Part shown: one piece after another, positions 9,939-29,658 of the stretch
Numbering within the stretch: position 1 is the first letter of the stretch
How the letters are laid out: every line of letters begins with the position of its first letter
From: Shinella lacus
GTDB taxonomy: Bacteria > Pseudomonadota > Alphaproteobacteria > Rhizobiales > Rhizobiaceae
Direction of reading: 5' to 3'
NCBI RefSeq assembly: GCF_010994755.1
Contig: NZ_WHSB02000011.1
Span: 1 to 64,000, forward strand
DNA: 64,000 nucleotides
The notes under the pieces: generated by a model
Seen by the model: only the letters and a program-made list of their open reading frames with translations
Database searches by the model: none
What the model was told of the DNA's origin: nothing
Program-made: the position numbers and the translations under genes

Positions 9939-12191
9939 ATGCGTCTTTCCATAAAGCTTTCGCTTGCAGCCCTGCTGCTGGCCGTTATCGCCATTTCCGC
10001 AACCAGCGTCGCGAGCCTCTATCTCAGCGCCAGCCAGTCGACCGAGGCGGCCGTGACGAAGCTCGAAACACTGGCCGACGGCCGGCGCAACGAACTGGCG
10101 CAGTATCTGCAATCGATCGTCAAGGAGACCCGCGACCTCGCCGGCCAGAAGGTCGTCGCCAAGGCGCTCGACGATCTCTCGGGTGAACTCGGCGCGATCG
10201 AAGGCGACCGCGCCGCCGAGCTGCAGCGGCGCTACGGCGGCAAGGCCGATCTGAAATCCGCCGAGATCGACAAGTTCGACCAGATGCATGGCCGCTACCA
10301 CGGCTTCTTCCTGCGGCAGGCGGAGGCGCAGGGTTTCGACGACATGCTGCTCGTCAATCTCAGCGGCGACATCGTCTATTCGCTGAAGAAACACGATGAT
10401 TTCGGCGCGAACCTGACGACCGACGCGCGCTTCGCCGGGACCGGCCTTGCCAAGGTCTTTGCCGAAGCGGCCCCCAGCACGGAAACCGCCATCGTCGCCT
10501 TCGGCGACTACCAGGCCTATGCGCCGGCCGGCCGTGCCATGGCCTTCCTCGCCGCCCCCGTCGCTTCCGTCGCCGGCAAGATCGGCGTGCTCGTCGTGGC
10601 CCTGCCGACCGAGCGCATCGCCGCCCGGCTGAACAATCCGGTCGGCCTCGGCGAGACCGGCGAAGCCATGCTGCTGAACGCCGACGGCACCCTCCTCACC
10701 CGCCCCTCGCATGGCGCGGATAACGACGTGCTCTCAATGCGCATCGCGCCGGAGCTTCTGGCCGCCGATGGCGGCGCGATCGCCAAGGCCACTCTGCCCG
10801 ATCATCGCGGCCGCGAGGTGAAACTCGCCGCCGCCAGCTTCGATTTCCTCGGCCGCACCTGGACCGTCGCCGCCGTCATGGCGTCGAGCGAAGTCTTCGC
10901 CGGCCTCACCCGCCTCATCCACTGGACGCTGCTCGTCTCGCTTTGCGTGCTCGTGGTGACGGCCGCCGTCGGTTTCCTCTTCGCCAGCCGCCTTTCACGC
11001 CCGATCACCGCTCTTGTCTCCGACATGAACCGGCTTGCCGGCGGCGACACGACGATTGCCTGCGATGGCCAGGCGCGCCGCGACGAGATCGGCGACATGG
11101 CGCGCTCCGTGCTCGTCTTCCGCGATGCCGCAATCGAAAAGGAACGCCTGCAACGCGAAACCGCGTCGATCCGCGAGGAGGCCGACAGCGAACGGGCGGC
11201 CCGTGAAAGCGCCAAGCAGGCGGAAGACGCCGAGACCGAGGCGGCCGTGCTGCGCCTGGCAGGCGCGCTGCAGCACCTCGCCCGCGGCGACCTCACGCAG
11301 CGCATCGACACGCCCTTCATGCCCGCGCTCGACCGCATCCGCACGGACTACAACGCCTCCATCGAACGCCTCGCCGAGGCGATGACGACGGTGCGCGTCA
11401 ACACGCACCGCATCCGCGACGATTCCAGCGAAATGCAGGAGGCGCTCGTCCAGCTCTCCAGCCGCACCGAACGGCAGGCCGCCTCCTTGGGCGAGGCCGC
11501 GACGGCGCTTGCCGAAATGACGCAGGCCGTACAGTCCGCCGCCGAGCGCACGACGGTCGCCGAACGCCTCGCCTCCGACACCAAGAAGAGCTCGGCCACC
11601 TCCGAACAGGTCGTCGACAACGTCGTCAGCGCCATCGGCAAGATCGAGACCTCTTCGCACGAGATCGGCAACATCATCGGCGTCATCGACGACATCGCCT
11701 TCCAGACCAACCTTCTGGCGTTGAACGCCGGCGTCGAGGCCGCACGCGCCGGCGAGGCCGGCAAGGGTTTCGCCGTCGTCGCGCAGGAGGTGCGGGAACT
11801 GGCGCAGCGCACGGCCAGTGCGGCGCGCGAGGTGAAGGCGCTGATCACCAAATCAGCCGACGAAGTGGCGCGCGGCGCGGGCCTCGTGCGCGAGACCGGC
11901 AGCGTGCTGCGCGACATCGCCGGCAAGATCAACGCGATCGACACGGAGATCAAGGAGATCGCGCGCGCGGCGCGCGACCAGTCCGTCGGCATCCGCGAGA
12001 TCAACACGACGATCCGCCAGCTCGACGCGGTGACCCAGCAGAATGCCGCGATGGTCGAGGAAAGCAGCGCCGTCACGCACCGCCTTTCCGACGAGTCCGC
12101 CACGCTTGCGCGCCTTGTCGGCCAGTTCGAGACGCCTAGCGAGACGTCCCGCCAACCGGCCGCAAGGCCGCACCTGCGCGCCATCGCCTGA
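9939..12191 (+). CDS. Methyl-accepting chemotaxis protein
   Basis: 750-aa transmembrane chemoreceptor. TM1 is at about residues 5-27. A periplasmic sensor region of about 300 residues with a Cache-like layout follows ([49 protein letters not shown]). TM2 is at about 329-350 and is followed by a HAMP domain ([20 protein letters not shown]). A long helical stretch holds a second HAMP-like [10 protein letters not shown]. The cytoplasmic hairpin tip reads [40 protein letters not shown] and [18 protein letters not shown]. There is no C-terminal NWETF-like pentapeptide for CheR docking. It stands as a single gene; the ligand is not predictable. Confidence 0.94.
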
Positions 12192-12297: not shown

Positions 12298-15200
12298 ATG
12301 TCGATCAAGGCCGGTATCTACCACCTCACCCATTACAAGTACGACAACCCGGTCCGGCTCGGACCCCAGATCATCCGGCTGAAGCCGGCCGCCCATTCCA
12401 AGACCAAGGTCATCAGCCATTCGCTGAAGGTTTCACCGGCAAACCATTTCGTGAACCTCCAGCAGGACCCCTACGGCAACTATCTCGCCCGCTACGTCTT
12501 TCCCGATCCGGTGACCGAGCTGAAGATCGAGGTCGATCTCGTCGCCGACATGACGGTCTACAATCCCTTCGACTTCTTCATCGAGGAGGAGGCCGAGCAC
12601 TGGCCCTTCGATTATCCGGAGGATCTGCGCGAAGACCTGAAGATTTATCGCGCACCCGAGCCCATGGACCCGGCGCTCGAAGCCTATATGAAGACGATCG
12701 ACCGCTCGCGCCGGCGCACGCTGGACATGGTCGTCGCCCTCAATGCGCAGGTCCAGCAGTCAGTCGGCTACGTCATCCGCATGGAGCCCGGCGTGCAGAC
12801 GCCGCAGGAGACGCTGACGACGGCGCTCGGTTCGTGCCGCGATTCGAGCTGGCTGCTGGTGCAGATCCTGCGCAATCTCGGCTTCGCCGCCCGCTTCGTC
12901 TCCGGTTATCTCATCCAGCTCAGCCCGGACCTCAAGGCGCTGGACGGCCCCTCCGGCACGGAGGTCGACTTCACCGACCTGCATGCCTGGTGCGAGGTCT
13001 ATCTCCCGGGCGCCGGTTGGATCGGCCTCGACCCGACGTCGGGGCTGCTCACCGGCGAAAGCCACATCCCGCTCGCCGCCACCCCGCACTTTCGCAATGC
13101 TGCACCGATCAGCGGCGGTTATTTCGGCGAGGCGAACACCGAATTCGATTTCGCGATGACGGTACAGCGTGTCGCCGAGCACCCGCGCATCACCAAGCCT
13201 TTCTCCGACGAGAGCTGGGAGGCGCTGAATGCGCTGGGCCGCAAGGTCGACACCGTGCTTTCGGACAACGACGTGCGCCTCACCATGGGCGGCGAGCCGA
13301 CCTTCGTCTCCATCGACGATTTCGAATCGGAGGAATGGAACACCGCCGCCGTCGGCCCGACCAAGCGCGAGAAGGCCGACGAGCTGATCCGGCGCCTGCG
13401 CGAGCGTTTCGCGCCCGGCGGCTTCCTGCATTACGGTCAGGGCAAGTGGTATCCCGGTGAAAGCCTGCCGCGCTGGACCTTCTCGCTCTACTGGCGCAAG
13501 GACGGCAAGCCGATCTGGCACAACCCGGACCTGATCGCCACGGAGGGTGCCGACACCGAGGTCACCGAAAAACAGGCCGAGGCGCTTCTCGCCGGCATCG
13601 CCGCGGAGCTTGAGATCGAGCCCGACATGATCATCCCCGCCTTCGAGGACCCGGCGGAATGGATCATCAAGGAAGGCAGCCTGCCGGAGAATGTCGACCC
13701 GTCGAACTCCAAGCTCGAAAGCCCGGAAGAGCGGGCGCGCATCGCCAAGGTCTTCGAGCGCGGCCTGACGACCGCGACCGGCTACATCCTGCCGGTGCAG
13801 GCATGGAACGCCAAGGCCGGCGGGCGGCGCTGGGTGAGCGAGCGGTGGCGCACCCGCCGCGGCAAGATCTTCCTCATTCCCGGCGATTCGCCGATCGGCT
13901 TTCGCATGCCGCTCGGCACCCTGCCCTACGTGCCGCCGTCGCAATATCCCTACATCCACCAGGCCGATCCTTCGATCCCGCGGGAGCCGCTGCCCGACTA
14001 CAGCGCCCCGGCGAGGACCCTGGCGCAGGCATCGCTCCGCGCGAGCGAGCCTCAGCAGGACCGCAACGAACAGAACATCGCCGGATCGACGGGTGACATC
14101 CGTGGCGCCGTGCGCACCGCTCTCAGCGTTGAACCGCGCGACGGCCGCCTGTGCGTCTTCATGCCACCCGTCGAGCGCATCGAGGACTATCTCGACCTGA
14201 TCGCCGCCGCCGAAAAAGCTGCAGCCGATCTCGGCCTGCCGGTCCATATCGAAGGCTATGCGCCGCCGCACGACGAGCGCATCAACGTCATGCGGGTCGC
14301 CCCCGATCCGGGCGTCATCGAGGTCAATATCCACCCCGCCGCCAACTGGCAGGACTGCGTGGACATCACCACCGCAGCCTACGAGGAGGCCCGCCTCACC
14401 CGGCTCGGCGCCGACAAGTTCATGATCGACGGCCGCCACACCGGTACGGGCGGCGGCAACCATGTCGTCGTCGGCGGCGACAACCCGAACAACAGCCCGT
14501 TCCTGCGCCGGCCGGATCTGCTGAAGAGCCTCATCCTGCACTGGCAGCGGCATCCGTCGCTCTCCTATCTCTTCTCGGGCATGTTCATCGGCCCGACCAG
14601 CCAGGCGCCGCGCATCGACGAAGCACGGCACGACACGCTCTACGAGATGGAAATCGCCTTCGCGCAGGTCCCGCCGCCAGGCCAAGGTGCTGCCCCCCTG
14701 CCCTGGCTCGTCGATCGCCTGTTCCGCAACCTCCTCACCGACGGCACCGGCAACACGCACCGCTCGGAAATCTGCATCGACAAGCTGTTCTCGCCGGACG
14801 GCCCGACCGGCCGCCTCGGCCTCGTCGAGTTCCGCGGTTTCGAAATGCCGCCGAATGCCCGCATGAGCCTTGCCCAGCAATTGCTGATCCGCGCCCTCAT
14901 CGCCCGCTTCTGGCAGAACCCGGCGGATGGCGGCTTCGTGCGCTGGGGCACCACGCTGCACGATCGTTTCATGCTGCCGCACTATGTCTGGCAGGACTTC
15001 CTCGACGTGCTGGCGGACCTCAAGACGAACGGCTTCGACCTCAAGTCCGAATGGTTCGCCGCCCAGCTCGAATTCCGCTTCCCCTTCTGTGGCGAGGTCG
15101 AATATGAGGGCGCCAACCTGGAAGTGCGCCAGGCGCTGGAACCCTGGCATGTCATGGGCGAACAGGGCGCGGTCGGCGGCACCGTGCGCTATGTCGATTC

Positions 15201-15627
15201 GTCCGTCGAACGCCTCCAGGTGAAGCTGGAGACCGCCAATCCGGAACGCTACACCGTCGCCTGCAACGGCAGGCCGGTTCCGCTGCGCTCGACCGGCACC
15301 AAGGGCGTCTCCGTCGCCGGCGTGCGCTACAAGGCCTGGCAGCCCGCCTCCGGCCTGCATCCGGCACTGCCCGTCAACACACCGCTTACATTTGACATTT
15401 ATGATACATGGTCGCGGCGGGCGATCGGGGGCTGCATCTACCACGTTGCCCATCCGGGCGGACGCAGCTATGACACCTTCCCGGTGAACGGAAACGAGGC
15501 TGAAGCGCGCCGGCTGGCGCGATTCGAGCCCTGGGGGCACAGGGCGGGCGGCTATACGCTGTGGCCGGAACCACCGTCGGCGGATTTCCCGCTGACGCTG
15601 GATCTGCGCCGGCCGTCCGGCATTTAG
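12298..15627 (+). CDS. Transglutaminase-DUF2126 fusion protein (predicted amidoligase-system component)
   Basis: 1109-aa cytosolic protein. Residues 1-90 are a bacterial transglutaminase N-terminal domain ([20 protein letters not shown]). Residues about 150-260 are the transglutaminase core with an intact triad: Cys180 ([10 protein letters not shown]), His229 ([18 protein letters not shown]) and Asp245. Residues about 270-1105 are the DUF2126 region, with [17 protein letters not shown] (Glu675) and [12 protein letters not shown] (His722), which resembles the glutamine-synthetase-like ligase fold. ATG 12298 follows GAGGGGA. The next gene starts 21 bases after its stop. The family is known to co-occur with ATP-grasp/alpha-E and transglutaminase genes in predicted peptide-synthesis or protein-modification systems; the product is unknown. 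Confidence 0.88.
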
Positions 15628-15648
15628 CCCTCCATTGGAGTACAGGAA

Positions 15649-18057
15649 TTGAAGACCACGAGTGTGGAGGCAGAACGCGTCAAGGCCGGTACGGCGCAAA
15701 AGCCGACGCGCGCCTATGCACCGCCTCCGGGCGTCGCCGACGAGATGGTCGATACGAACGGCGAAGTACGCCCGGTCTGGCGGCATTTTCTCGCAGCACT
15801 CGGCAAGATGGACGAGACCGAGCTTGCCGGCCGCTTCGCCCGTGCCGACCGCTACCTGCGCGATGCCGGCGTCTTCTACCGGGCCTATGGCAAGGAGGCC
15901 GGCGCCGAGCGCGCCTGGCCGCTCTCCCACATTCCCGTGCTCATCGACGACGCCGAGTGGGAAACCCTGTCGCGCGGCCTCATCCAGCGGGCGGAACTGC
16001 TGGAGGCGGTCGTCGCCGACATCTACGGCAAGAACGAGCTCGTTGCCAACGGCCTGCTGCCACCGGCCCTCGTCGCCTCCAACAGCGAATTCCTGCGTCC
16101 GCTCGTCGGCGTGCAGCCCGCCGGCAAACATTTCCTGCACTTCGTTTCCTTCGAGATCGGCCGCGGGCCGGACGGCAACTGGTGGGTGCTCTCCGACCGC
16201 ACGCAGGCACCATCGGGCGCCGGCTTCGCGGTGGAAAACCGCGTGGCGACGACGCGCGCCTTCTCCGATGTCTTCGCGGAAACCCACGTCCACCGCCTCG
16301 CCGGCTTCTTCGGCGCCTTCCGCAGCACGCTGCAGGGCAACAAATCCGCGGAAGACCGCATCGCGGTCCTGACGCCGGGCCTCGCCAACGAGACCTATTT
16401 CGAACACGCCTATATTGCCCGCTATCTCGGCTTCATGCTGCTGGAAGGCGAGGACCTGACGGTCGTCGGCGGCAAGGTCATGGTGCGCACCGTTGCCGGC
16501 CTCAAGCCGGTCGGCGTGCTCTGGCGCCGCCTCGATGCCTCCTTTGCCGATCCGCTGGAGTTGAACCAGAATTCCCATATCGGCACGCCCGGCATCGTCG
16601 AGGCGCTGCGCTCCGGCTCCGTCAGCATCGTCAACGCGCTCGGTGCCGGGGTCGTCGAGACCCGCGCCATGCTTGCCTTCCTGCCGAACATCTGTCGCCA
16701 ACTGCTCGGCGAGGACCAGATGCTGCCGTCCGTCGCCACCTGGTGGTGCGGCCAGAAGAGCGAACGCGAGCACGTCGCGGCCAATATCGAGCGCATGGTC
16801 ATCGGCCCGGCCTATTCGACCCGCCCCTTCTTCGACGACAACGAGCAGTCCGTGCTCGGCTCCTCGCTGCGTGACACGGCAAAACAGTCGATCGCCGAAT
16901 GGCTGGCGACGGATGGCGTGAAACTGGTCGGGCAGGAAGCGGTGACGCTGTCCACCACGCCCGCCTTCGTCGATGGCAAGCTCGTGCCGCGGCCGATGTC
17001 GCTGCGCGTCTTCGCCGCCCGCACGCGAAGCGGATGGCAGATCATGCCCGGCGGCTTTGCCCGCATCGGCGCCGGCGACAACGTCGCAGCGATCGCCATG
17101 CAGGAGGGCGGCTCGGCGGCGGATGTCTGGATCGTCAGCCGCAAGCCGGTCGAGCGCACCTCGCTGCTGCCGGCCGAGGAGATGTTTACCCGCAACATGC
17201 CCGGCAGCCTGCCGAGCCGCGCGGCCGACAACCTCTTCTGGCTCGGCCGCTATATCGAGCGGGCGGAAGGCGCGCTGCGCGTGCTGCGCGCCTGGCATGG
17301 CCGCTACGCCGAATATGCCAATCCCGAACAGCCGCTGCTGAAGGATGTCAGTGACTATCTCGACGCACTTGGCATCGACACGGCGGAAGCCATGCCGACG
17401 AGCCTGATCCGCAGCATCGACAGCGCCGTCTTCTCCGCCGGCAACATCCGCGACCGTTTTTCGCCGGACGGCTGGCTGGCGCTGAACGACCTGTCGAAGA
17501 CCGCCCGCCGCTTCCATGTCAGCGTCCAGCCCGGCGACGATGCCACGCGCGCCATGACCGTGCTCCTGCGCAAGCTCGCGGGCTTCGCCGGCCTCGTGCA
17601 CGAAAACATGTACCGCTTCACCGGCTGGCGCTTCCTCTCGATCGGCCGCTATCTCGAACGCGGCCTGCACATGACGCGCCTGCTCGGCCACATGTCTGGC
17701 GAGGATGCCCCCGACGGCGCACTCGACATGTTGCTGGAGATCGGCGACAGCGTGATGACCCATCGCCGCCGCTATAATGTGGCGACGGCGCGGCTGACGG
17801 TCACCGACCTCCTGGCGCTCGACGCCCTCAACCCCCGCTCGATCCTCTATCAACTGAACGAGATCAAGAATGAGGTCGAGCAACTGCCGAACGCCTATGC
17901 CAATGGCCAGATGTCGCCGTTCTACCGCGAAGCCATGCGGCTTCACGCCGGGCTGGCGGTGATGACGCCGGAAACCATGACGGATGCGGTCTACAAGCGT
18001 TTCGAGACCGAACTCGAAAAGCTGTCCGACATCCTCGCCCAGACTTATCTGAGCTGA
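15649..18057 (+). CDS. Circularly permuted ATP-grasp / alpha-E fusion protein (DUF404-DUF403)
   Basis: 802-aa predicted ATP-dependent carboxylate-amine ligase. Residues about 60-500 are the circularly permuted ATP-grasp module (SDRTQAPSGAGFAVENR at about 182-198, LTPGLANETYFEHAYIARYL, LLEGEDLTVVGGKVMVRTVA, WRRLDASFADPLELN, TWWCGQ). Residues about 512-800 are the all-helical alpha-E domain (LPSRAADNLFWLGRYIERAE, FAGLVHENMYRFTGWRFLSI, SVMTHRRRYNVATARLTVTD). In many genomes these are separate genes; here they are fused. The TTG start at 15649 follows GGAGTACAGG. Middle gene of the three-gene cluster with 21- and 16-base gaps, so very probably an operon. The amide formed is unknown. Confidence 0.9.
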   Translation: MKTTSVEAERVKAGTAQKPTRAYAPPPGVADEMVDTNGEVRPVWRHFLAALGKMDETELAGRFARADRYLRDAGVFYRAYGKEAGAERAWPLSHIPVLIDDAEWETLSRGLIQRAELLEAVVADIYGKNELVANGLLPPALVASNSEFLRPLVGVQPAGKHFLHFVSFEIGRGPDGNWWVLSDRTQAPSGAGFAVENRVATTRAFSDVFAETHVHRLAGFFGAFRSTLQGNKSAEDRIAVLTPGLANETYFEHAYIARYLGFMLLEGEDLTVVGGKVMVRTVAGLKPVGVLWRRLDASFADPLELNQNSHIGTPGIVEALRSGSVSIVNALGAGVVETRAMLAFLPNICRQLLGEDQMLPSVATWWCGQKSEREHVAANIERMVIGPAYSTRPFFDDNEQSVLGSSLRDTAKQSIAEWLATDGVKLVGQEAVTLSTTPAFVDGKLVPRPMSLRVFAARTRSGWQIMPGGFARIGAGDNVAAIAMQEGGSAADVWIVSRKPVERTSLLPAEEMFTRNMPGSLPSRAADNLFWLGRYIERAEGALRVLRAWHGRYAEYANPEQPLLKDVSDYLDALGIDTAEAMPTSLIRSIDSAVFSAGNIRDRFSPDGWLALNDLSKTARRFHVSVQPGDDATRAMTVLLRKLAGFAGLVHENMYRFTGWRFLSIGRYLERGLHMTRLLGHMSGEDAPDGALDMLLEIGDSVMTHRRRYNVATARLTVTDLLALDALNPRSILYQLNEIKNEVEQLPNAYANGQMSPFYREAMRLHAGLAVMTPETMTDAVYKRFETELEKLSDILAQTYLS

Positions 18058-18073
18058 GCGGGGAGGAGACGCT

Positions 18074-18967
18074 GTGACCATGCTCTACGACGTCAACCTC
18101 CAGATCAGCTATCTCTACGACACGCCGGTTTCCGGCGGGCGCCATATCGTGCGCGTGCTGCCGCTGTCCATCGGCGGCCGCCAGCGGCTGGTCGCCGGCA
18201 CGGTCGGCGTCAATCCCGGCCCCGGCGAGCGGGTCGACCACAACGACTTCTTCGAAAACCCGATGAGCTCGATCCTCTTTCGCAATGCGCACGAGCGGCT
18301 GGACATCCGCATGCAGGCCCGCGTCCATGTGGACATGCCGGAGCCGGCGGCCGATTTTTCGCCGCGCGTCGCCGACCTGCCAGAGGATATCGCCAATTAC
18401 TGGTCGCTCGATGCCGGTTCGCCCCATCACTATACCGGCGCCAGCCCGCGGCTGAAGGATTGCCCAGAGATCGCTGAATACGCCCGCGCCATCGCCAAGC
18501 CGGACATGACGATCCGCGCCATCGCGACCGCCGTCTGCGCCCGCATCCACAAGGATTTCACCTACGATCCGAAGGCGACGAACGTCGACACCACCCCACG
18601 CGAGGCCTTCAAGCTGAAGCGCGGCGTCTGCCAGGATTTCACCCATGTGATGATCGTGGCGCTGAGAAGCCTCGGCATTCCCGCCGGCTATGTCAGCGGG
18701 TTCCTGCGCACCATTCCGCCTGCGGGCAAGGAGCGGCTGGAGGGGGCGGACGCCATGCATGCCTGGGTACGCTTCTGGTGCGGCCGGGTGAATGGCTGGT
18801 TGGAGCTCGACCCGACCAACAACATCCCCGCCGGCACCGACCATATCGTCGTCGCATATGGCCGGGACTACGCCGACGTCGCCCCCGTCATCGGGATCCT
18901 GAAAGGCTATGGCCAGCACAAGACGACCCAGGCCGTGGACGTCATCCCGGTGCGCCAGACCGCGTGA
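18074..18967 (+). CDS. Transglutaminase-like cysteine protease family protein
   Basis: 297 aa. The N-terminal transglutaminase beta domain (LYDVNLQISYLYDTPVSGGR, HIVRVLPLSIGGRQR) is followed by a transglutaminase core with an intact triad: Cys186 (KRGVCQDFTHVMI), His229 (AMHAWVRFW) and Asp246 (WLELDPTNNI). Such bacterial enzymes act as peptidases or amide-transfer enzymes. GTG 18074 is 5 bases after GGAGGAG; ATG 18080, two codons in, is an equally plausible start. Last gene of the cluster with the DUF2126 and ATP-grasp/alpha-E genes, suggesting it matures or cleaves the product (inference). Confidence 0.9.
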   Translation: MTMLYDVNLQISYLYDTPVSGGRHIVRVLPLSIGGRQRLVAGTVGVNPGPGERVDHNDFFENPMSSILFRNAHERLDIRMQARVHVDMPEPAADFSPRVADLPEDIANYWSLDAGSPHHYTGASPRLKDCPEIAEYARAIAKPDMTIRAIATAVCARIHKDFTYDPKATNVDTTPREAFKLKRGVCQDFTHVMIVALRSLGIPAGYVSGFLRTIPPAGKERLEGADAMHAWVRFWCGRVNGWLELDPTNNIPAGTDHIVVAYGRDYADVAPVIGILKGYGQHKTTQAVDVIPVRQTA

Positions 18968-19108: not shown

Positions 19109-20374
19109 ATGACGAAGAATACGGAAAAACGCTCCTGGCTCTCCCGCCTCCTGCGGGACCGCCGCGGTAATTTCGGAATGATGACGGCCCTCGTCTTCCC
19201 GGTCATGCTGGCGGCCGGCGGCGTCGCCGTGGACCTTACAAAGATGGTCATGGTCAAGGCCGAGTTGCAGGACGCGACCGACGCGGCCGCCCTCGCCGCC
19301 GCCTCCGCACTTGCCAATGACGGCAAGACCGCTGCGCAGGCGAAGGAAATCGGTATGCGCTTCCTCAAGAGCCAGATGACGACCGGCGGTAGCGTGGATG
19401 CCGAAGGGGACCAGAAGGAAAAGGATAAGGACAAGAACGACTTCTCGTCCTCCACCGTCATCGACATCAAAGAGACGGCCCTGGCCAACAACAGCAAGTC
19501 GTTCCAGGTGGATGTGGCGACGGCCTACACGCTGGAGTTCAACCCCTTCACGCGTCTTCTTGGTCAGAAATCGATCAAGATGAATGCGAAAAGCACGGCG
19601 GAAAGCGGTACAGCCCAGAAGAAGAGTGCGATTTCCATGTACCTCGTGCTGGACCGCTCGGGCTCTATGTCCTTCAAAACGGATGACATTGCGAGCCAGA
19701 TCCTCCCCTGCCAGAACTGGACAGAAAGCAACTGGGGAAAAGTCGTTCTCCCGACTGTTCCCTGCTACACACGCAAGATCGCCGCCCTGAAGAAGGCTGT
19801 GGCGAGCCTCGTGACCGTCTTCAACACGCTCGATCCCGAGCAGAAATACGTCCGCACCGGCGCCATCTCCTATAACGACGATACGCAGAGCGAATCCAAG
19901 CTGGCCTGGGGAACGAAAGGCGCGTCCGACTACGTCAACGCCCTTCCGGAACAGCCGACCGGTGGCACGGATTCACATGAGGCTTTCGCCACGGCGGTCG
20001 CTAAAATAGCGCCTGCGAACAAGAACAAGGAAACCGAGATTGGCGCACACAAGGACAAGAATGGCCAGGTGCCCATCAAGTATATCATCTTCATGACGGA
20101 TGGTGAAAACACCAGCTATGACGGCTACGCTTCCACGTCGCAGGCTAAGAAATCCGACGACGAAACAAGAGCCTCGTGTGTAGAAGCCCGCGACGCCGGC
20201 GTGATCGTCTACACCGTCGCTTTCATGGCGCCGACGCGCGGCCAGACGCTGCTCAGGGAGTGCGCTACGACGCCAGCCAACTATTTCCAGGCTGAGAACA
20301 TGACCGCTCTCATCGCCGCGTTCAAGGCAATCGGCGAAAGTGCAGCCGCCATGGCGTCCCGCCTGACCAAGTAA
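19109..20374 (+). CDS. TadG-like pilus-assembly protein with von Willebrand factor A domain
   Basis: 421-aa membrane-anchored protein. Residues about 15-60 form the TadE/TadG N-terminus (RDRRGNFGMMTALVFPVMLA then AAGGVAVDLTKMVMVKAELQ, followed by DATDAAALAAASAL) with one transmembrane helix. A charged linker (DQKEKDKDKNDF) precedes a VWA domain starting at about 175 with an intact MIDAS motif D182-R-S184-G-S186, plus FMTDGEN near 330. Such proteins are linked to Flp pilus or cell-envelope functions in rhizobia. It stands alone, away from a tad cluster, and ends at a strong terminator. Start ATG 19109. Confidence 0.88.
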   Translation: MTKNTEKRSWLSRLLRDRRGNFGMMTALVFPVMLAAGGVAVDLTKMVMVKAELQDATDAAALAAASALANDGKTAAQAKEIGMRFLKSQMTTGGSVDAEGDQKEKDKDKNDFSSSTVIDIKETALANNSKSFQVDVATAYTLEFNPFTRLLGQKSIKMNAKSTAESGTAQKKSAISMYLVLDRSGSMSFKTDDIASQILPCQNWTESNWGKVVLPTVPCYTRKIAALKKAVASLVTVFNTLDPEQKYVRTGAISYNDDTQSESKLAWGTKGASDYVNALPEQPTGGTDSHEAFATAVAKIAPANKNKETEIGAHKDKNGQVPIKYIIFMTDGENTSYDGYASTSQAKKSDDETRASCVEARDAGVIVYTVAFMAPTRGQTLLRECATTPANYFQAENMTALIAAFKAIGESAAAMASRLTK

Positions 20375-20578: not shown

Positions 20579-23038
20579 ATGATGAACCGGGTTACCAACA
20601 ACGATCTCGCCCCGGCCCTCCGATCTTCGGACCGAGAACAACTCGCCACCGAACTTCTGGAGCGCCTCAAATACCGTATCGGGAAAGACCCGAAAGTGGC
20701 CAAGCCCCATGATTGGCTGACGGCCGCGATCCTGGTGGCGCGCGACCGCATCACCGACAAGTGGATGGACTCCACCCGCCGCACCTACGCGACGGGCGCG
20801 AAGCGCGTCTACTACCTGTCGCTCGAATTCCTCATCGGCCGCCTGATGCGCGACGCGATGACCAATATCGGCATCATGGACGAGATGCGCCATGCGCTCG
20901 CCTCCCTCGGCGTCGATATCGATATCATCGCCGAGCTGGAGCCGGATGCGGCCCTCGGCAATGGCGGTCTCGGCCGTCTCGCCGCCTGTTTCATGGAGAG
21001 CATGGCGACGGTTGACGTACCCGCCTACGGCTACGGCATCCGTTACGTGCACGGCCTCTTCCGCCAGCAGATGGCGGACGGCTGGCAGGTCGAGCTGCCG
21101 GAAACCTGGCTCGCCCACGGCAATGCCTGGGAATTCGAACGCCGCGAAAGCTCCTACGAAATCGGCTTCGGCGGCGCCGTCGAGACGATCAATATCGGCG
21201 AGGACAAGCAGCGTTTCGTCTGGAAGCCGGCCGAGCGCGTCATCGCGACCGCCTTCGACACGCCGGCCGTCGGCTGGCGGGGCAAGCGCGTCAACACGCT
21301 GCGCCTGTGGGCCGCCAACCCGATCGACCCGATCCTGCTCGACGCCTTCAACGCCGGCGATCACATCGGTGCGCTCAAGGAGAGCAACAGGGCGGAAAGC
21401 CTGACGCGCGTGCTCTATCCGGCCGACGCCACGCCCGCCGGCCAGGAACTGCGCCTGCGCCAGGAATTCTTCTTCTGCTCCGCCTCGCTGCAGGACATCC
21501 TGCGCCGCCATCTCCAGCAATATCCGGACTTCACGTCCCTGCCGGACGCCGTCGCGATCCAGCTCAACGACACGCACCCGGCCATTTCCGTGGTTGAACT
21601 CGTGCGCCTGCTGATGGATGTCCACGGGCTGGATTTCGACGTCGCCTGGGATATCGGCCGCCGCACCTTCTCCTACACCAACCATACGCTGCTGCCCGAA
21701 GCGCTGGAAAGCTGGCCGGTGCCGCTGCTCGAACGGCTGCTGCCGCGGCATATGCAGATCGTCTATGCGATCAATGCCAAGATCCTCGTCGAAGCCCGCA
21801 AGGAAAAGGGTTTCGAAGACCAGCGCATCCGCAGCATCTCGCTGATCGAGGAATCCGGCGAGCGCCGCGTGCGCATGGGCAACCTCGCCTTCGTCGGCTC
21901 GCACTCGATCAACGGCGTGTCGGCGCTGCACACCGAGCTGATGAAGGAAACGGTCTTCGCCGACCTGCACAAGCTCTATCCGAACCGCATCAACAACAAG
22001 ACGAACGGCATCACGCCGCGCCGCTGGCTGATGCAGTGCAATCCGGGCCTGTTCAACCTGATCCGCGAATCGATCGGCGAAGCCTTCATGGACGACGCCG
22101 AGGCACTGAAGGCGCTCGACGCCTTCGCCGACAAGAAGGATTTCCAGGAGCGTTTCGCGGCGATCAAGCGGGAGAACAAGAACCGCCTCGCCAATCTGGT
22201 CGGCAGCCGAATGGGGGTCCGCATCGATCCCGCCGCGATGTTCGACATCCAGATCAAGCGCATTCACGAATACAAGCGCCAGCTCCTCAACATCATCGAG
22301 GCGGTGGCGCTTTACGACCAGATCCGCTCGCATCCGGAACTCGACTGGGTGCCGCGCGTAAAACTCTTCGCGGGCAAGGCGGCGCCGAGCTACCACAATG
22401 CCAAGCTGATCATCAAGCTCGCCAACGACGTGGCGCGCGTGATCAACAACGACCCCTCCGTGCGCGGCCTGCTCAAGGTCGTCTTCGTGCCGAACTACAA
22501 TGTCTCGCTCGCCGAGATCATGGTGCCCGCCGCCGACCTCTCGGAGCAGATTTCGACCGCCGGCATGGAAGCGTCGGGAACCGGAAACATGAAGTTCGCG
22601 TTGAACGGTGCACTGACCATCGGCACGCTCGACGGCGCCAATGTCGAGATGCGTGACCATGTCGGCGAGGAGAACATCGTGATTTTCGGCATGACGGCGG
22701 AAGAAGTGGCGAAGGTGAGGGCCGAAGGGCACAATCCGCGCGCCATCATCGAGCAGTCGAAGGAGCTGTCGCAGGCGCTCGCCGCGATTTCCTCCGGCGT
22801 CTTCTCGCCGGATGACCGCAACCGCTTCACCGGCCTCGTCGACGGCATCTACAATCACGACTGGTTCATGGTGGCGGCCGATTTCGATGCCTATTCCAAG
22901 GCCCAGCGCGATGTCGACGCCATCTGGCTCGACAAGACGGCCTGGTACTCCAAGACCGTGCGCAACACGGCCCGCATGGGCTGGTTCTCGTCCGACCGCA
23001 CCATTCGCCAATACGCCAAGGAAATCTGGAGAGCCTGA
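20579..23038 (+). CDS. glgP: Glycogen phosphorylase
   Basis: PLP enzyme that releases glucose-1-phosphate from glycogen ends; 819 aa, typical length. Signatures are YLSLEFLIGRLMRDAMTNIG, GNGGLGRLAACFMESMAT, KVFFVPNYNVS-like KVVFVPNYNVSLAE and EASGTGNMKFALNGALTIGT, with the PLP lysine at about Lys672. ATG 20579 follows GAGGGGA. It opens the glycogen operon and its stop overlaps the glgB start by one base (TGATG), indicating translational coupling. Confidence 0.97.
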   Translation: MMNRVTNNDLAPALRSSDREQLATELLERLKYRIGKDPKVAKPHDWLTAAILVARDRITDKWMDSTRRTYATGAKRVYYLSLEFLIGRLMRDAMTNIGIMDEMRHALASLGVDIDIIAELEPDAALGNGGLGRLAACFMESMATVDVPAYGYGIRYVHGLFRQQMADGWQVELPETWLAHGNAWEFERRESSYEIGFGGAVETINIGEDKQRFVWKPAERVIATAFDTPAVGWRGKRVNTLRLWAANPIDPILLDAFNAGDHIGALKESNRAESLTRVLYPADATPAGQELRLRQEFFFCSASLQDILRRHLQQYPDFTSLPDAVAIQLNDTHPAISVVELVRLLMDVHGLDFDVAWDIGRRTFSYTNHTLLPEALESWPVPLLERLLPRHMQIVYAINAKILVEARKEKGFEDQRIRSISLIEESGERRVRMGNLAFVGSHSINGVSALHTELMKETVFADLHKLYPNRINNKTNGITPRRWLMQCNPGLFNLIRESIGEAFMDDAEALKALDAFADKKDFQERFAAIKRENKNRLANLVGSRMGVRIDPAAMFDIQIKRIHEYKRQLLNIIEAVALYDQIRSHPELDWVPRVKLFAGKAAPSYHNAKLIIKLANDVARVINNDPSVRGLLKVVFVPNYNVSLAEIMVPAADLSEQISTAGMEASGTGNMKFALNGALTIGTLDGANVEMRDHVGEENIVIFGMTAEEVAKVRAEGHNPRAIIEQSKELSQALAAISSGVFSPDDRNRFTGLVDGIYNHDWFMVAADFDAYSKAQRDVDAIWLDKTAWYSKTVRNTARMGWFSSDRTIRQYAKEIWRA

Positions 23039-25251
23039 TGACCGCACCGCCGAAAAAAGGCACGACGGACCAACCGTCAGAGCTTCTGGCAAAAGCGGAC
23101 ATCGATGCAATTTTGGAAAGCCGGCACTGGGATCCGTTCGCAGTGCTCGGCCCCCATCCGGCGGGCGAAAAATATATCGCCCGCTGCTTCTTGCCGGGTG
23201 CCACCGAAGTCACCGCCGAGACATTGGCGGGCAAGGAGATCGGCGCGCTCGCCCAGGTCGATCCGGCCGGCATCTTCGCCGGCGAGGTTTCCCTCAAGAA
23301 ACTCCAGCCGATCCGCTATCGCGCCCGCAACGAGGGCGGCGACTGGGTGGTGATCGACCCCTATAGTTTCGGACCGGTGCTCGGCCCGATGGACGACTAT
23401 TATATTCGCGAAGGCTCGCATCTGCGCCTTTTCGATAAACTGGGCGCTCATCCGATGACGCTCGACGGCATAGAAGGCTTCCATTTCGCCGTCTGGGCGC
23501 CGAATGCCAAGCGCGTCTCGGTCGTCGGCAATTTCAACGAATGGGACGGGCGGCGCAACGCGATGCGCCTGCGCCGTGACACCGGCATCTGGGAAATCTT
23601 CCTGCCCGGCATTACCGAAGGCCACGCCTATAAATACGAGATCGTCGGCATCAATGGCGAGGTCCTGCCGCTGAAGGCCGACCCCTTCGCCCGCCGCTCG
23701 GAACTGCGCCCCAACAACGCCTCGATGACCACCGGGCCGATCGCCCAGGAATGGGAAGACGAGGCGCATCTCAAGCATTGGGCGACCGCGGACGCGCGCC
23801 GCCAGCCGATCTCGATCTACGAGGTGCATGCCGCGTCCTGGCAGCGCCACGGCGACGGGGCCATGCTGACCTGGGACGAGCTCGCCGACCGGCTGATCCC
23901 CTACTGCGTCGACATGGGATTTTCCCATATCGAGTTCCTGCCGATCACCGAATATCCCTTCGACCCGTCCTGGGGCTACCAGACGACCGGCCTCTATTCG
24001 CCGACCGCCCGCTTCGGCGAGCCGGAAGGCTTCGCCCGCTTCGTCAACGGCTGCCACAAGGTCGGCATCGGCGTCATTCTCGACTGGGTGCCGGCGCATT
24101 TCCCGACGGATGCGCATGGTCTGCGCCAGTTCGATGGCACCGCACTCTACGAACACGAGGACCCGCGCCAAGGTTTTCACCCGGACTGGAACACGGCGAT
24201 CTACAATTTCGGCCGCGCCGAAGTGCTCGCCTACCTCATTAACAACGCGCTCTACTGGTCGGAAAAGTTCCACCTCGACGGGCTGCGCGTCGATGCCGTC
24301 GCCTCGATGCTCTACCTCGACTATTCGCGCAAACACGGCGAATGGGTCCCGAACGAATATGGCGGCAACGAGAACCTGGAGGCGGTCCGCTTCCTGCAAT
24401 CGATGAACGCCCATGTCTATGCCGCCCATCCCGGCATCCTGACAATCGCGGAAGAGTCCACTTCCTGGCCGAAGGTTTCGGCGCCAGTGCATGACGGCGG
24501 CCTCGGCTTCGGCTTCAAGTGGAACATGGGCTTCATGCACGATACGCTGCAATATCTGTCGCGCGAGCCAGTGCACCGCAAGTTCCACCACAACGACATG
24601 ACCTTCGGCCTACTCTATGCCTTTACGGAGAATTTCGTGCTGCCGCTGTCCCACGACGAGGTGGTGCACGGCAAGGGCTCGCTGATCGCCAAGATGGCGG
24701 GCGACGACTGGCAGAAATTCGCGAATCTGCGCGCCTATTACGGCTTCATGTGGGGGTATCCCGGCAAGAAGCTGCTGTTCATGGGCCAGGAATTCGCGCA
24801 ATGGCAGGAATGGAGCGAGGAAAAGTCGCTCGACTGGAACCTGCTCGAATATCCGCTGCACGAGGGCATGCGCCGGCTGGTGCGCGACCTGAACGGCACC
24901 TACCGCCGCAAGGCCGCGTTGCATGCGCGCGACTGCGAAGGCGACGGCTTCGAATGGCTGATCGCCGACGATCGCGAAAACTCGGTCTTCGCCTGGCTGC
25001 GCAAGGCGCCGGGCGAAAAGATGATCGCCGTCGTCACCAACTTCACACCGGTCTACCGCGAGAACTACGGGGTGCCGTTGCCGGTGGAGGGCCGGTGGCG
25101 CGAAATCCTCAACACCGATGCCGAAATCTACGGCGGCAGTGGCAAGGGGAATGGCGGGGCCGTTCAGGCCAAGAAACAGGCAAATGGAAGAATCTCAGCC
25201 GCCATCACGCTGCCCCCGCTGGCAACGCTGATGCTGGAACTGGACGCGTAA
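23038..25251 (+). CDS. glgB: 1,4-alpha-glucan branching enzyme
   Basis: GH13 enzyme adding alpha-1,6 branches to glycogen; 737 aa. An N-terminal CBM48 pair (HWDPFAVLGPHP; FHFAVWAPNAKRVSVVGNFN) precedes the catalytic barrel with LRVDAVASML (nucleophile Asp419), IAEESTSWP (acid/base Glu472) and LPLSHDEVVHGKGSL. It overlaps the glgP stop by one base. The C-terminal tail carries a short Gly/Lys-rich insert (GGSGKGNGGAVQAKKQ) before the final beta-domain strand. glgC follows 24 bases later. Confidence 0.97.
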   Translation: MTAPPKKGTTDQPSELLAKADIDAILESRHWDPFAVLGPHPAGEKYIARCFLPGATEVTAETLAGKEIGALAQVDPAGIFAGEVSLKKLQPIRYRARNEGGDWVVIDPYSFGPVLGPMDDYYIREGSHLRLFDKLGAHPMTLDGIEGFHFAVWAPNAKRVSVVGNFNEWDGRRNAMRLRRDTGIWEIFLPGITEGHAYKYEIVGINGEVLPLKADPFARRSELRPNNASMTTGPIAQEWEDEAHLKHWATADARRQPISIYEVHAASWQRHGDGAMLTWDELADRLIPYCVDMGFSHIEFLPITEYPFDPSWGYQTTGLYSPTARFGEPEGFARFVNGCHKVGIGVILDWVPAHFPTDAHGLRQFDGTALYEHEDPRQGFHPDWNTAIYNFGRAEVLAYLINNALYWSEKFHLDGLRVDAVASMLYLDYSRKHGEWVPNEYGGNENLEAVRFLQSMNAHVYAAHPGILTIAEESTSWPKVSAPVHDGGLGFGFKWNMGFMHDTLQYLSREPVHRKFHHNDMTFGLLYAFTENFVLPLSHDEVVHGKGSLIAKMAGDDWQKFANLRAYYGFMWGYPGKKLLFMGQEFAQWQEWSEEKSLDWNLLEYPLHEGMRRLVRDLNGTYRRKAALHARDCEGDGFEWLIADDRENSVFAWLRKAPGEKMIAVVTNFTPVYRENYGVPLPVEGRWREILNTDAEIYGGSGKGNGGAVQAKKQANGRISAAITLPPLATLMLELDA

Positions 25252-25275
25252 AAAATCGACTGTCGGGAGGACACT

Positions 25276-26538
25276 ATGGAGCAAAAGCGGATTCAACCCC
25301 TCGCCCGTGACGCGATGGCCTATGTTCTTGCCGGCGGCCGAGGAAGCCGCCTGAAGGAACTGACCGACCGGCGCGCCAAGCCCGCCGTCTATTTCGGCGG
25401 CAAGGCGCGCATCATCGACTTCGCGCTGTCGAATGCGCTGAATTCCGGCATCCGCCGCATCGGCGTCGCCACGCAGTACAAGGCGCATTCGCTGATCCGC
25501 CACCTGCAGCGCGGCTGGAACTTCTTCCGCCCCGAGCGAAACGAAAGCTTCGACATCCTGCCGGCCAGCCAGCGCGTGTCCGAGACGCAATGGTACGAGG
25601 GCACCGCAGACGCCGTCTACCAGAACATCGACATCATCGAGGACCACGGCGTCGAGTATATGGTGATCCTGGCGGGCGACCATATCTATAAAATGGACTA
25701 CGAGCTGATGCTCCAGCAGCACGTCGATTCCGGCGCGCAGGTCACCATCGGCTGCCTCGAAGTGCCGCGCATGGAGGCGACCGGCTTCGGCGTCATGCAT
25801 GTCGACGAGAAGGACCAGATCATTGCCTTCGTCGAGAAGCCGGCCGATCCGCCGGGCATTCCCGGCCAGCCGGACCTGGCGCTCGCCTCCATGGGCATCT
25901 ACGTCTTCCACACCAAGTTCCTGATGGACCTGTTGCGCCGCGACGCCGCCGACCCGACGTCGAGCCGCGATTTCGGCAAGGACATCATTCCCTATATCGT
26001 CCAGCACGGCAAAGCCGTCGCCCACCGCTTCGCCTCCTCCTGCGTGCGCTCCGATTTCGAGCGCGAGGCCTATTGGCGCGACGTCGGCACGATCGATGCC
26101 TATTGGCAGGCCAACATCGACCTCACGGACATCGCCCCGGAACTCGACATCTACGACAGCACCTGGCCGATTTGGACCTTCGCCGAGATCAAGCCGCCGG
26201 CAAAGTTCGTGCATGACGACGAAAACCGGCGCGGCTCGGCGATCTCCTCGCTGGTTTCGGGCGATTGCATCATCTCCGGTTCGACGCTGCACCGCAGCCT
26301 GCTCTTCACCGGCGTGCGCGCCAATTCCTTCTCCAGGCTGGAGGGCGCGGTCGTTCTGCCCGATGTCAGGATCGGCCGGCACGCGAACCTCAAGAATGTC
26401 GTGATCGACCGCGGCGTCATCATTCCCGAGGGCCTCGTCGTCGGCGAGGACCCGGAAGCCGACGCCCGGCGGTTCCGCCGGTCGAGCGGCGGCATCTGCC
26501 TCATCACCCAACCGATGATCGACAAGCTGGAGCAGTAG
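25276..26538 (+). CDS. glgC: Glucose-1-phosphate adenylyltransferase
   Basis: Makes ADP-glucose from glucose-1-phosphate and ATP, the committed step of glycogen synthesis; 420 aa. The N-terminal nucleotidyltransferase has [52 protein letters not shown] and the sugar-phosphate lysine region [10 protein letters not shown]. The C-terminus is a left-handed beta-helix ([12 protein letters not shown]-like segment, [16 protein letters not shown]). ATG 25276 follows GGGAGGA. Allosteric control by fructose-6-phosphate or pyruvate is typical of the rhizobial enzyme and inferred here. Confidence 0.97.
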
Positions 26539-26546
26539 TCGTCCTG

Positions 26547-29658
<3,112 letters not shown>

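Follow-up and report, generated by a model that had tools for sequence, protein, structure and literature searches.

The cluster and its domains

Three genes lie on the plus strand of a 64,000-nucleotide stretch of the Shinella lacus genome (contig NZ_WHSB02000011.1, positions 1 to 64,000; hereafter the window, contig C4 in our numbering of the 7.04-Mb genome). The first, gene A (12298..15627, ATG start), encodes a protein of 1109 aa. Its transglutaminase-like N-terminal part, made up of Bact_transglu_N (PF08379, residues 7-83) and Transglut_core (PF01841, residues 132-246; 12691..13035), is followed by a DUF2126 domain (PF09899, residues 278-1104; 13129..15609), which covers profile positions 2-826 of 826 and scores 1340.7 bits against a cut-off of 27. 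Gene B (15649..18057, TTG start, 802 aa) starts after a gap of 21 bases and joins a circularly permuted (CP) ATP-grasp domain (PF14403, CP_ATPgrasp_2, 460.6 bits against a cut-off of 32; residues 96-473; 15934..17067) to an Alpha-E domain (PF04168, 204.3 bits; residues 521-801; 17209..18051). Another 16 bases separate it from gene C (18074..18967, GTG start), whose 297-aa product consists of Bact_transglu_N and Transglut_core. The Pfam search agrees with the domain content proposed in a first-pass annotation of the sequence, which also had the coordinates and the tight spacing of the genes right; no NCBIfam model matches any of the three proteins. The closest named relatives of the DUF2126 protein are from Rhizobium strains, with 87, 85 and 83% identity at best.

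ATP-site residues in the fused ATP-grasp domain

ATP-grasp frames were sorted by length, not by residues, those above 700 aa being classed as fused and those below 650 aa as stand-alone. Removal of one misassigned and one out-of-frame row left 27 stand-alone and 108 fused rows, the latter representing 107 distinct sequences (72 rows come from the alphaproteobacterial locus set described below, 2 from plasmids and 34 from the window and further genomes). The two kinds differ sharply at the presumed ATP site. E-x-N is present in 27/27 stand-alone and 0/108 fused rows (the Glu alone in 1/108), and the same 27/27 versus 0/108 division is seen for GGYG and for DDK; the Lys column is occupied in all 27 stand-alone and in only 6 of the fused rows. 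A plain string search, giving 27 stand-alone and no fused hits for EDN and for GGYG alike, agrees with the alignment count. In gene B of the window, SDRTQAPSG (16192..16218) stands where stand-alone relatives have EDN.R.PSG, the presumed metal site, and VIGPAYSTRPFFDDNEQSVLG (16798..16860) replaces VVK...SGGYG, the presumed nucleotide-binding Lys and Gly-rich loop. The Lys column here holds a Gly, the Gly loop is absent and ETR is found in place of DDK. One of the two ligase-like modules counted in the first-pass annotation is therefore devoid of residues kept by all 27 stand-alone relatives examined. A lack of ATP-binding residues, named there as grounds for refuting the reading, is thus seen at the sequence level. 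The ATP-grasp of gene B thus appears to be a pseudo-ATP-grasp that has lost its ATP site, which calls for caution in annotating gene B proteins as ligases. Open-licence literature yielded no paper on inactive, degenerate or pseudo-ATP-grasps; print elsewhere may differ.

The ratio of nonsynonymous to synonymous substitution rates (dN/dS) over residues 96-473 is 0.18, 0.21 and 0.22 between the window and three Rhizobium relatives, indicating that the pseudo-ATP-grasp is under purifying selection and not decaying. The same pairs give 0.13-0.16 for Alpha-E, 0.14-0.16 for DUF2126, 0.14-0.19 for the transglutaminase part of gene A and 0.32-0.37 for gene C. In a tree of 73 rows, a single branch with a support of 100/100 divides 45 fused from 27 stand-alone rows; two of the fused rows (L055 and L056) sit on very long branches. 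An orphan stand-alone sequence placed outside both groups (L173, from contig C1 of genome G069) falls among the stand-alone rows. It keeps EDN and DDK and carries a partly altered loop, SGPRN in place of SGGYG, which may mean that its ATP site was lost independently.

The Alpha-E half of the protein looks intact. Residues R534, Y535, E537, R538, R544, R601, G648, G666, E670, R671, P729 and R730 are each found in at least 70 of 71 fused rows and in 25/25 stand-alone rows, save R534 (23), Y535 (21) and R538 (24). The domain matches the PF04168 profile and shows two E-R motifs, E537/R538 (70/71 and 71/71 fused rows, respectively) and E670/R671. Its model is all helical, with a predicted local distance difference test score (pLDDT) of 92.2; none of 223 Foldseek matches in the PDB reached E <= 0.001. 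The first-pass annotation had taken the fusion as a sign of direct cooperation between the two domains. Alpha-E does adjoin an ATP-grasp fold, but one with no recognisable ATP site.

A tentative reading, to which we give somewhat less than even confidence, is that this CP ATP-grasp subfamily, in which every row examined is fused to Alpha-E, gave up ATP use in a single event and persisted as a pseudo-ligase with an obligate partner, docking substrate or positioning Alpha-E for DUF2126. The cluster would then rely on an active ATP-grasp elsewhere, and the catalytic or carrier function of the system as a whole may reside in Alpha-E. A different fate is conceivable for the domain, namely that it was converted and not inactivated, with D-R-x-Q-x-P-S-G, in place of E-D-N-x-R-x-P-S-G, forming a new site for a metal-free nucleotide, for a phosphorylated or otherwise charged substrate, or for another reaction. 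Of the segments measured in fused rows, the one with this motif is the most conserved (mean 0.86 versus 0.60 overall), the former Lys/Gly loop being the least (0.44), and a D-R-like motif occurs in 104/108 fused and 0/27 stand-alone rows. However, the position facing the former Glu is variable (G in 44, A in 31 and S in 22 of the 108), and conservation by itself could mark a binding or structural role as well as new catalysis. We regard conversion as unlikely.

DUF2126, the transglutaminase domains and conservation of the locus

With the fused ATP-grasp apparently inactive, DUF2126 becomes the remaining ligase candidate of the cluster. The EVN and GGGNH motifs, on which the first-pass annotation had based a resemblance to glutamine-synthetase-like ligases, are present at residues 675-677 and 718-722 of gene A. 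Twelve residues forming the candidate site (E333, E675, N677, H722, R772, H821, R822, E824, D828, E844, R846 and E849) are invariant in 117/117 rows. The model of the domain is of middling quality (pLDDT 73.9, predicted template modelling score (pTM) 0.79). Foldseek gave 296 matches in the PDB, none at E <= 0.001; the 50 listed all belong, by title, to the glutamine-synthetase superfamily and include glutamine synthetases, YbdK-type ligases, GmaS, a bifunctional glutathione synthetase and Dop. From the invariant residues and these weak fold matches, DUF2126 is probably a glutamine-synthetase-like enzyme, in line with the earlier proposal. We found no paper on DUF2126 in the open-licence literature; print elsewhere may differ.

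Membership in a superfamily that also holds PafA and Dop raises another explanation, in which DUF2126 attaches or removes a protein tag, as in pupylation, and the transglutaminases act as tag proteases. Dop structures are indeed among the 50 listed matches, and tagging is discussed in a paper on the Anbu operon (PMC6376114). Yet YbdK and glutamine synthetase matches outrank Dop, and no conserved small tag-like gene is seen among the 45 largest open reading frame (ORF) clusters of 112 loci, for which frames of at least 60 aa were considered. Tagging seems to us a rather improbable function.

Both transglutaminase triads proposed in the first-pass annotation proved to be in place and conserved. 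In gene A, C180 is found in 116 of the 117 DUF2126 rows (the other having a gap), H229 and D245 in all 117. In gene C, C186 and H229 are found in 105 of 106 rows and D246 in 104, the remainder being gaps. Each set counts the window protein twice and one contig is doubled, so that the rows correspond to about 115 and 104 distinct proteins. By their PF08379 and PF01841 matches and Cys-His-Asp triads, both proteins belong to the bacterial transglutaminase-like class. The same genome contains two adjoining transglutaminase-like frames on contig C1 (L038, 6474-8493), away from this cluster and from the second one described below.

Gene order was surveyed in 80 alphaproteobacterial DUF2126 loci, the top-ranking ones among no fewer than 575 relatives. 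The fused gene lies directly downstream of DUF2126, on the same strand, in 72 of them, and is followed by gene C in 71; the transglutaminase part is attached to DUF2126 in all 80. Among the eight exceptions, three loci run into a contig end, one genome holds the fused gene elsewhere, and four draft genomes have only a stand-alone ATP-grasp (the contig of one stopping soon after DUF2126). The A-B-C order is also found on a plasmid of the acidobacterium Granulicella, and on an Acidithiobacillus plasmid DUF2126 has Alpha-E and a stand-alone ATP-grasp as neighbours, and the transglutaminase part forms a frame of its own. Recurrence of the order in 71/80 loci and on the acidobacterial plasmid indicates that the cluster is more than a chance assembly.

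In a survey of 150 genomes drawn from the phylum, DUF2126 was present in 46, spread over 19 numbered families, and a CP ATP-grasp scored above the cut-off in 83. In 40 of the 46 genomes a full-length fused gene shares the contig with DUF2126 at a distance of about 6 kb or less, and one more holds a cut-off piece; none was seen in the other five, in two of which the locus is at a contig end. Conversely, the fused gene occurs without DUF2126 in 4/150 genomes, one of them 74% complete. Independent conservation of the genes, which would speak against the reading of the first-pass annotation, is thus found in part, in these four genomes and in the four alphaproteobacterial ones that have DUF2126 and no fused gene. 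Persistence of DUF2126 and of a stand-alone ATP-grasp system in genomes devoid of the fused gene fits an auxiliary role for the latter.

Apart from the three genes and frames that overlap them, the 45 largest ORF clusters, built from frames of 60 aa or more, hold stand-alone Alpha-E, present in 22 loci, and neighbours bound to particular lineages, the biggest such cluster spanning 29 alphaproteobacterial loci. They include no precursor peptide and no fourth conserved gene. The DUF2126 part had no match in phage records. The cluster in the window is one of many of a known kind, with nothing unusual in its gene content.

As for its surroundings, a gene for a methyl-accepting chemotaxis protein (dCache, HAMP and MCP domains; 9939-12191, plus strand) stops 106 bases upstream of gene A. 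Gene C is followed by a gene for a TadE/G-like protein with a VWA domain (19109-20374, plus strand), which is found near the cluster in 17 of the 112 loci, all alphaproteobacterial, and by glycogen genes (20579-29658, plus strand) for phosphorylase, branching enzyme, a GlgC-type nucleotidyltransferase and phosphoglucomutase. An open frame of 1773 aa on the minus strand (12760-18081) covers most of genes A and B and has similar minus-strand counterparts in relatives; most likely it only mirrors GC-rich coding DNA as a shadow frame.

A proposed accessory module and an Anbu-type core

The genome carrying the window has a single DUF2126 and two Alpha-E domains. The second Alpha-E is on contig C33, in a row with a stand-alone ATP-grasp and a transglutaminase. 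A stand-alone ATP-grasp frame was found in 46/46 DUF2126 genomes versus 36/104 others (Fisher p = 2e-16, a value overstated by the relatedness of the genomes), and lies in the same stretch (up to 20 kb) in 21/36 DUF2126 loci. The proteasome-family protein Anbu was considered as a member of the window cluster and rejected, there being no PF00227 match nearby; the one PF00227 match of this genome (C8:15935) is presumably HslV. Among the matches listed for other genomes, two (G030, locus L174, C65:26096; G053, C41:3800) are weak PF00227 matches located between the fused gene and DUF2126. These genes probably encode Anbu, which suggests that a link between Anbu and DUF2126 exists in other genomes, with the two systems physically joined.

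These observations lead us to a reading that we hold to be evenly poised between right and wrong: the cluster would be an accessory amide-bond module added to an Anbu-type core of stand-alone CP ATP-grasp, Alpha-E and transglutaminase, encoded on another contig. In this view DUF2126 would be its one ligase, the domain fused to Alpha-E a pseudo-ligase, and the two transglutaminase-like parts hydrolases or transferases, all working with the core. The core ATP-grasp would form, at the cost of ATP, a peptide or conjugate with an amide link, on which DUF2126, acting as a glutamine-synthetase-like carboxylate-amine ligase, would add or alter a further amide bond. Amides of that product may be cut or transferred by the gene C protein and by the transglutaminase domain of gene A, while gene B would serve as a non-catalytic platform keeping the substrate, or Alpha-E, next to DUF2126. 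We infer the DUF2126 activity, the platform role, the shared substrate and every chemical step.

Several points weigh against this scheme. The roles of E-x-N in binding metal, and of Lys and GGYG in binding nucleotide, are presumed from ATP-grasp proteins in general, and unusual ATP-grasps could bind ATP in another way. The co-occurrence counts are phylogenetically non-independent, and in the window's own genome no Anbu lies beside the core genes on their contig. The best fold match of DUF2126, YbdK, has an E-value of 1.1e-3 and a large root-mean-square deviation. Profile-profile comparison of DUF2126, in which one row (L168) was a 96-aa wrong frame, gave no significant match to the glutamine synthetases (E = 0.17) or to the GCS2 protein (E = 0.38) of its own genome; the sole stretch aligned at E = 0.17, suggestive but short of significance, places EVN and GGGNH opposite the E segment and the G-S-G-M-H segment of glutamine synthetase. 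Finally, we know of no enzyme activity of DUF2126 or Alpha-E, and none was found in the open-licence literature searched.

That the fused ATP-grasp is an active ligase alongside DUF2126, the two making an amide-linked metabolite or tag which the two transglutaminases trim, is highly improbable given that E-x-N and GGYG occur in 0/108 and the Lys in 6/108 fused rows, even though Pfam still detects the ATP-grasp domain at 460.6 bits and parts of the pocket are kept (the FLDP Asp in 108/109, the YRR Arg in 97/109 and the ENR Asn in 98/109 rows). The accessory-module reading predicts ATP use for some modules and not for others, turning a vague picture of two ligases and two proteases into a testable one for families (Anbu, Alpha-E, ATP-grasp and DUF2126) whose link to peptide synthesis is over 15 years old and has yielded no product.

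Clusters of DUF2126, transglutaminase and CP ATP-grasp-Alpha-E were reportedly described, and predicted to make or modify peptides, by Iyer et al. in 2009 (Mol Biosyst 5:1636). Other papers cite that work for such a role. An association study in Sinorhizobium meliloti names a regulatory region beside a COG2308 gene (circularly permuted ATP-grasp) as one of its nodule-competition candidates. The DUF2126 model resembles the YbdK, glutamine synthetase and Dop superfamily weakly but uniformly in fold, whereas sequence and profile similarity is not significant. Gene B aligns over 466 residues (E = 2e-70) with 3n6x, the structure of a CP ATP-grasp annotated as a putative glutathionylspermidine synthase; 3n6x has EDN, the Lys and SGGYG, whereas gene B has none of the three. 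Another parallel is the Anbu operon, which, according to its descriptions (PMC5666114, PMC6376114), shares the ATP-grasp, Alpha-E and transglutaminase families with the cluster. The ATP-grasp of the Yersinia bercovieri operon, which from the operon description would be of the stand-alone kind, frees phosphate from ATP, a point in favour of ATP use by that kind; its authors state that their data cannot tell ligation from hydrolysis (PMC6376114). Among the proteins considered here it is the only one with published ATP turnover. The two arrangements differ in that the Anbu operon has its ATP-grasp as a separate gene, whereas the window cluster, with no Anbu gene, has it fused to Alpha-E and stripped of the canonical residues, and adds DUF2126.

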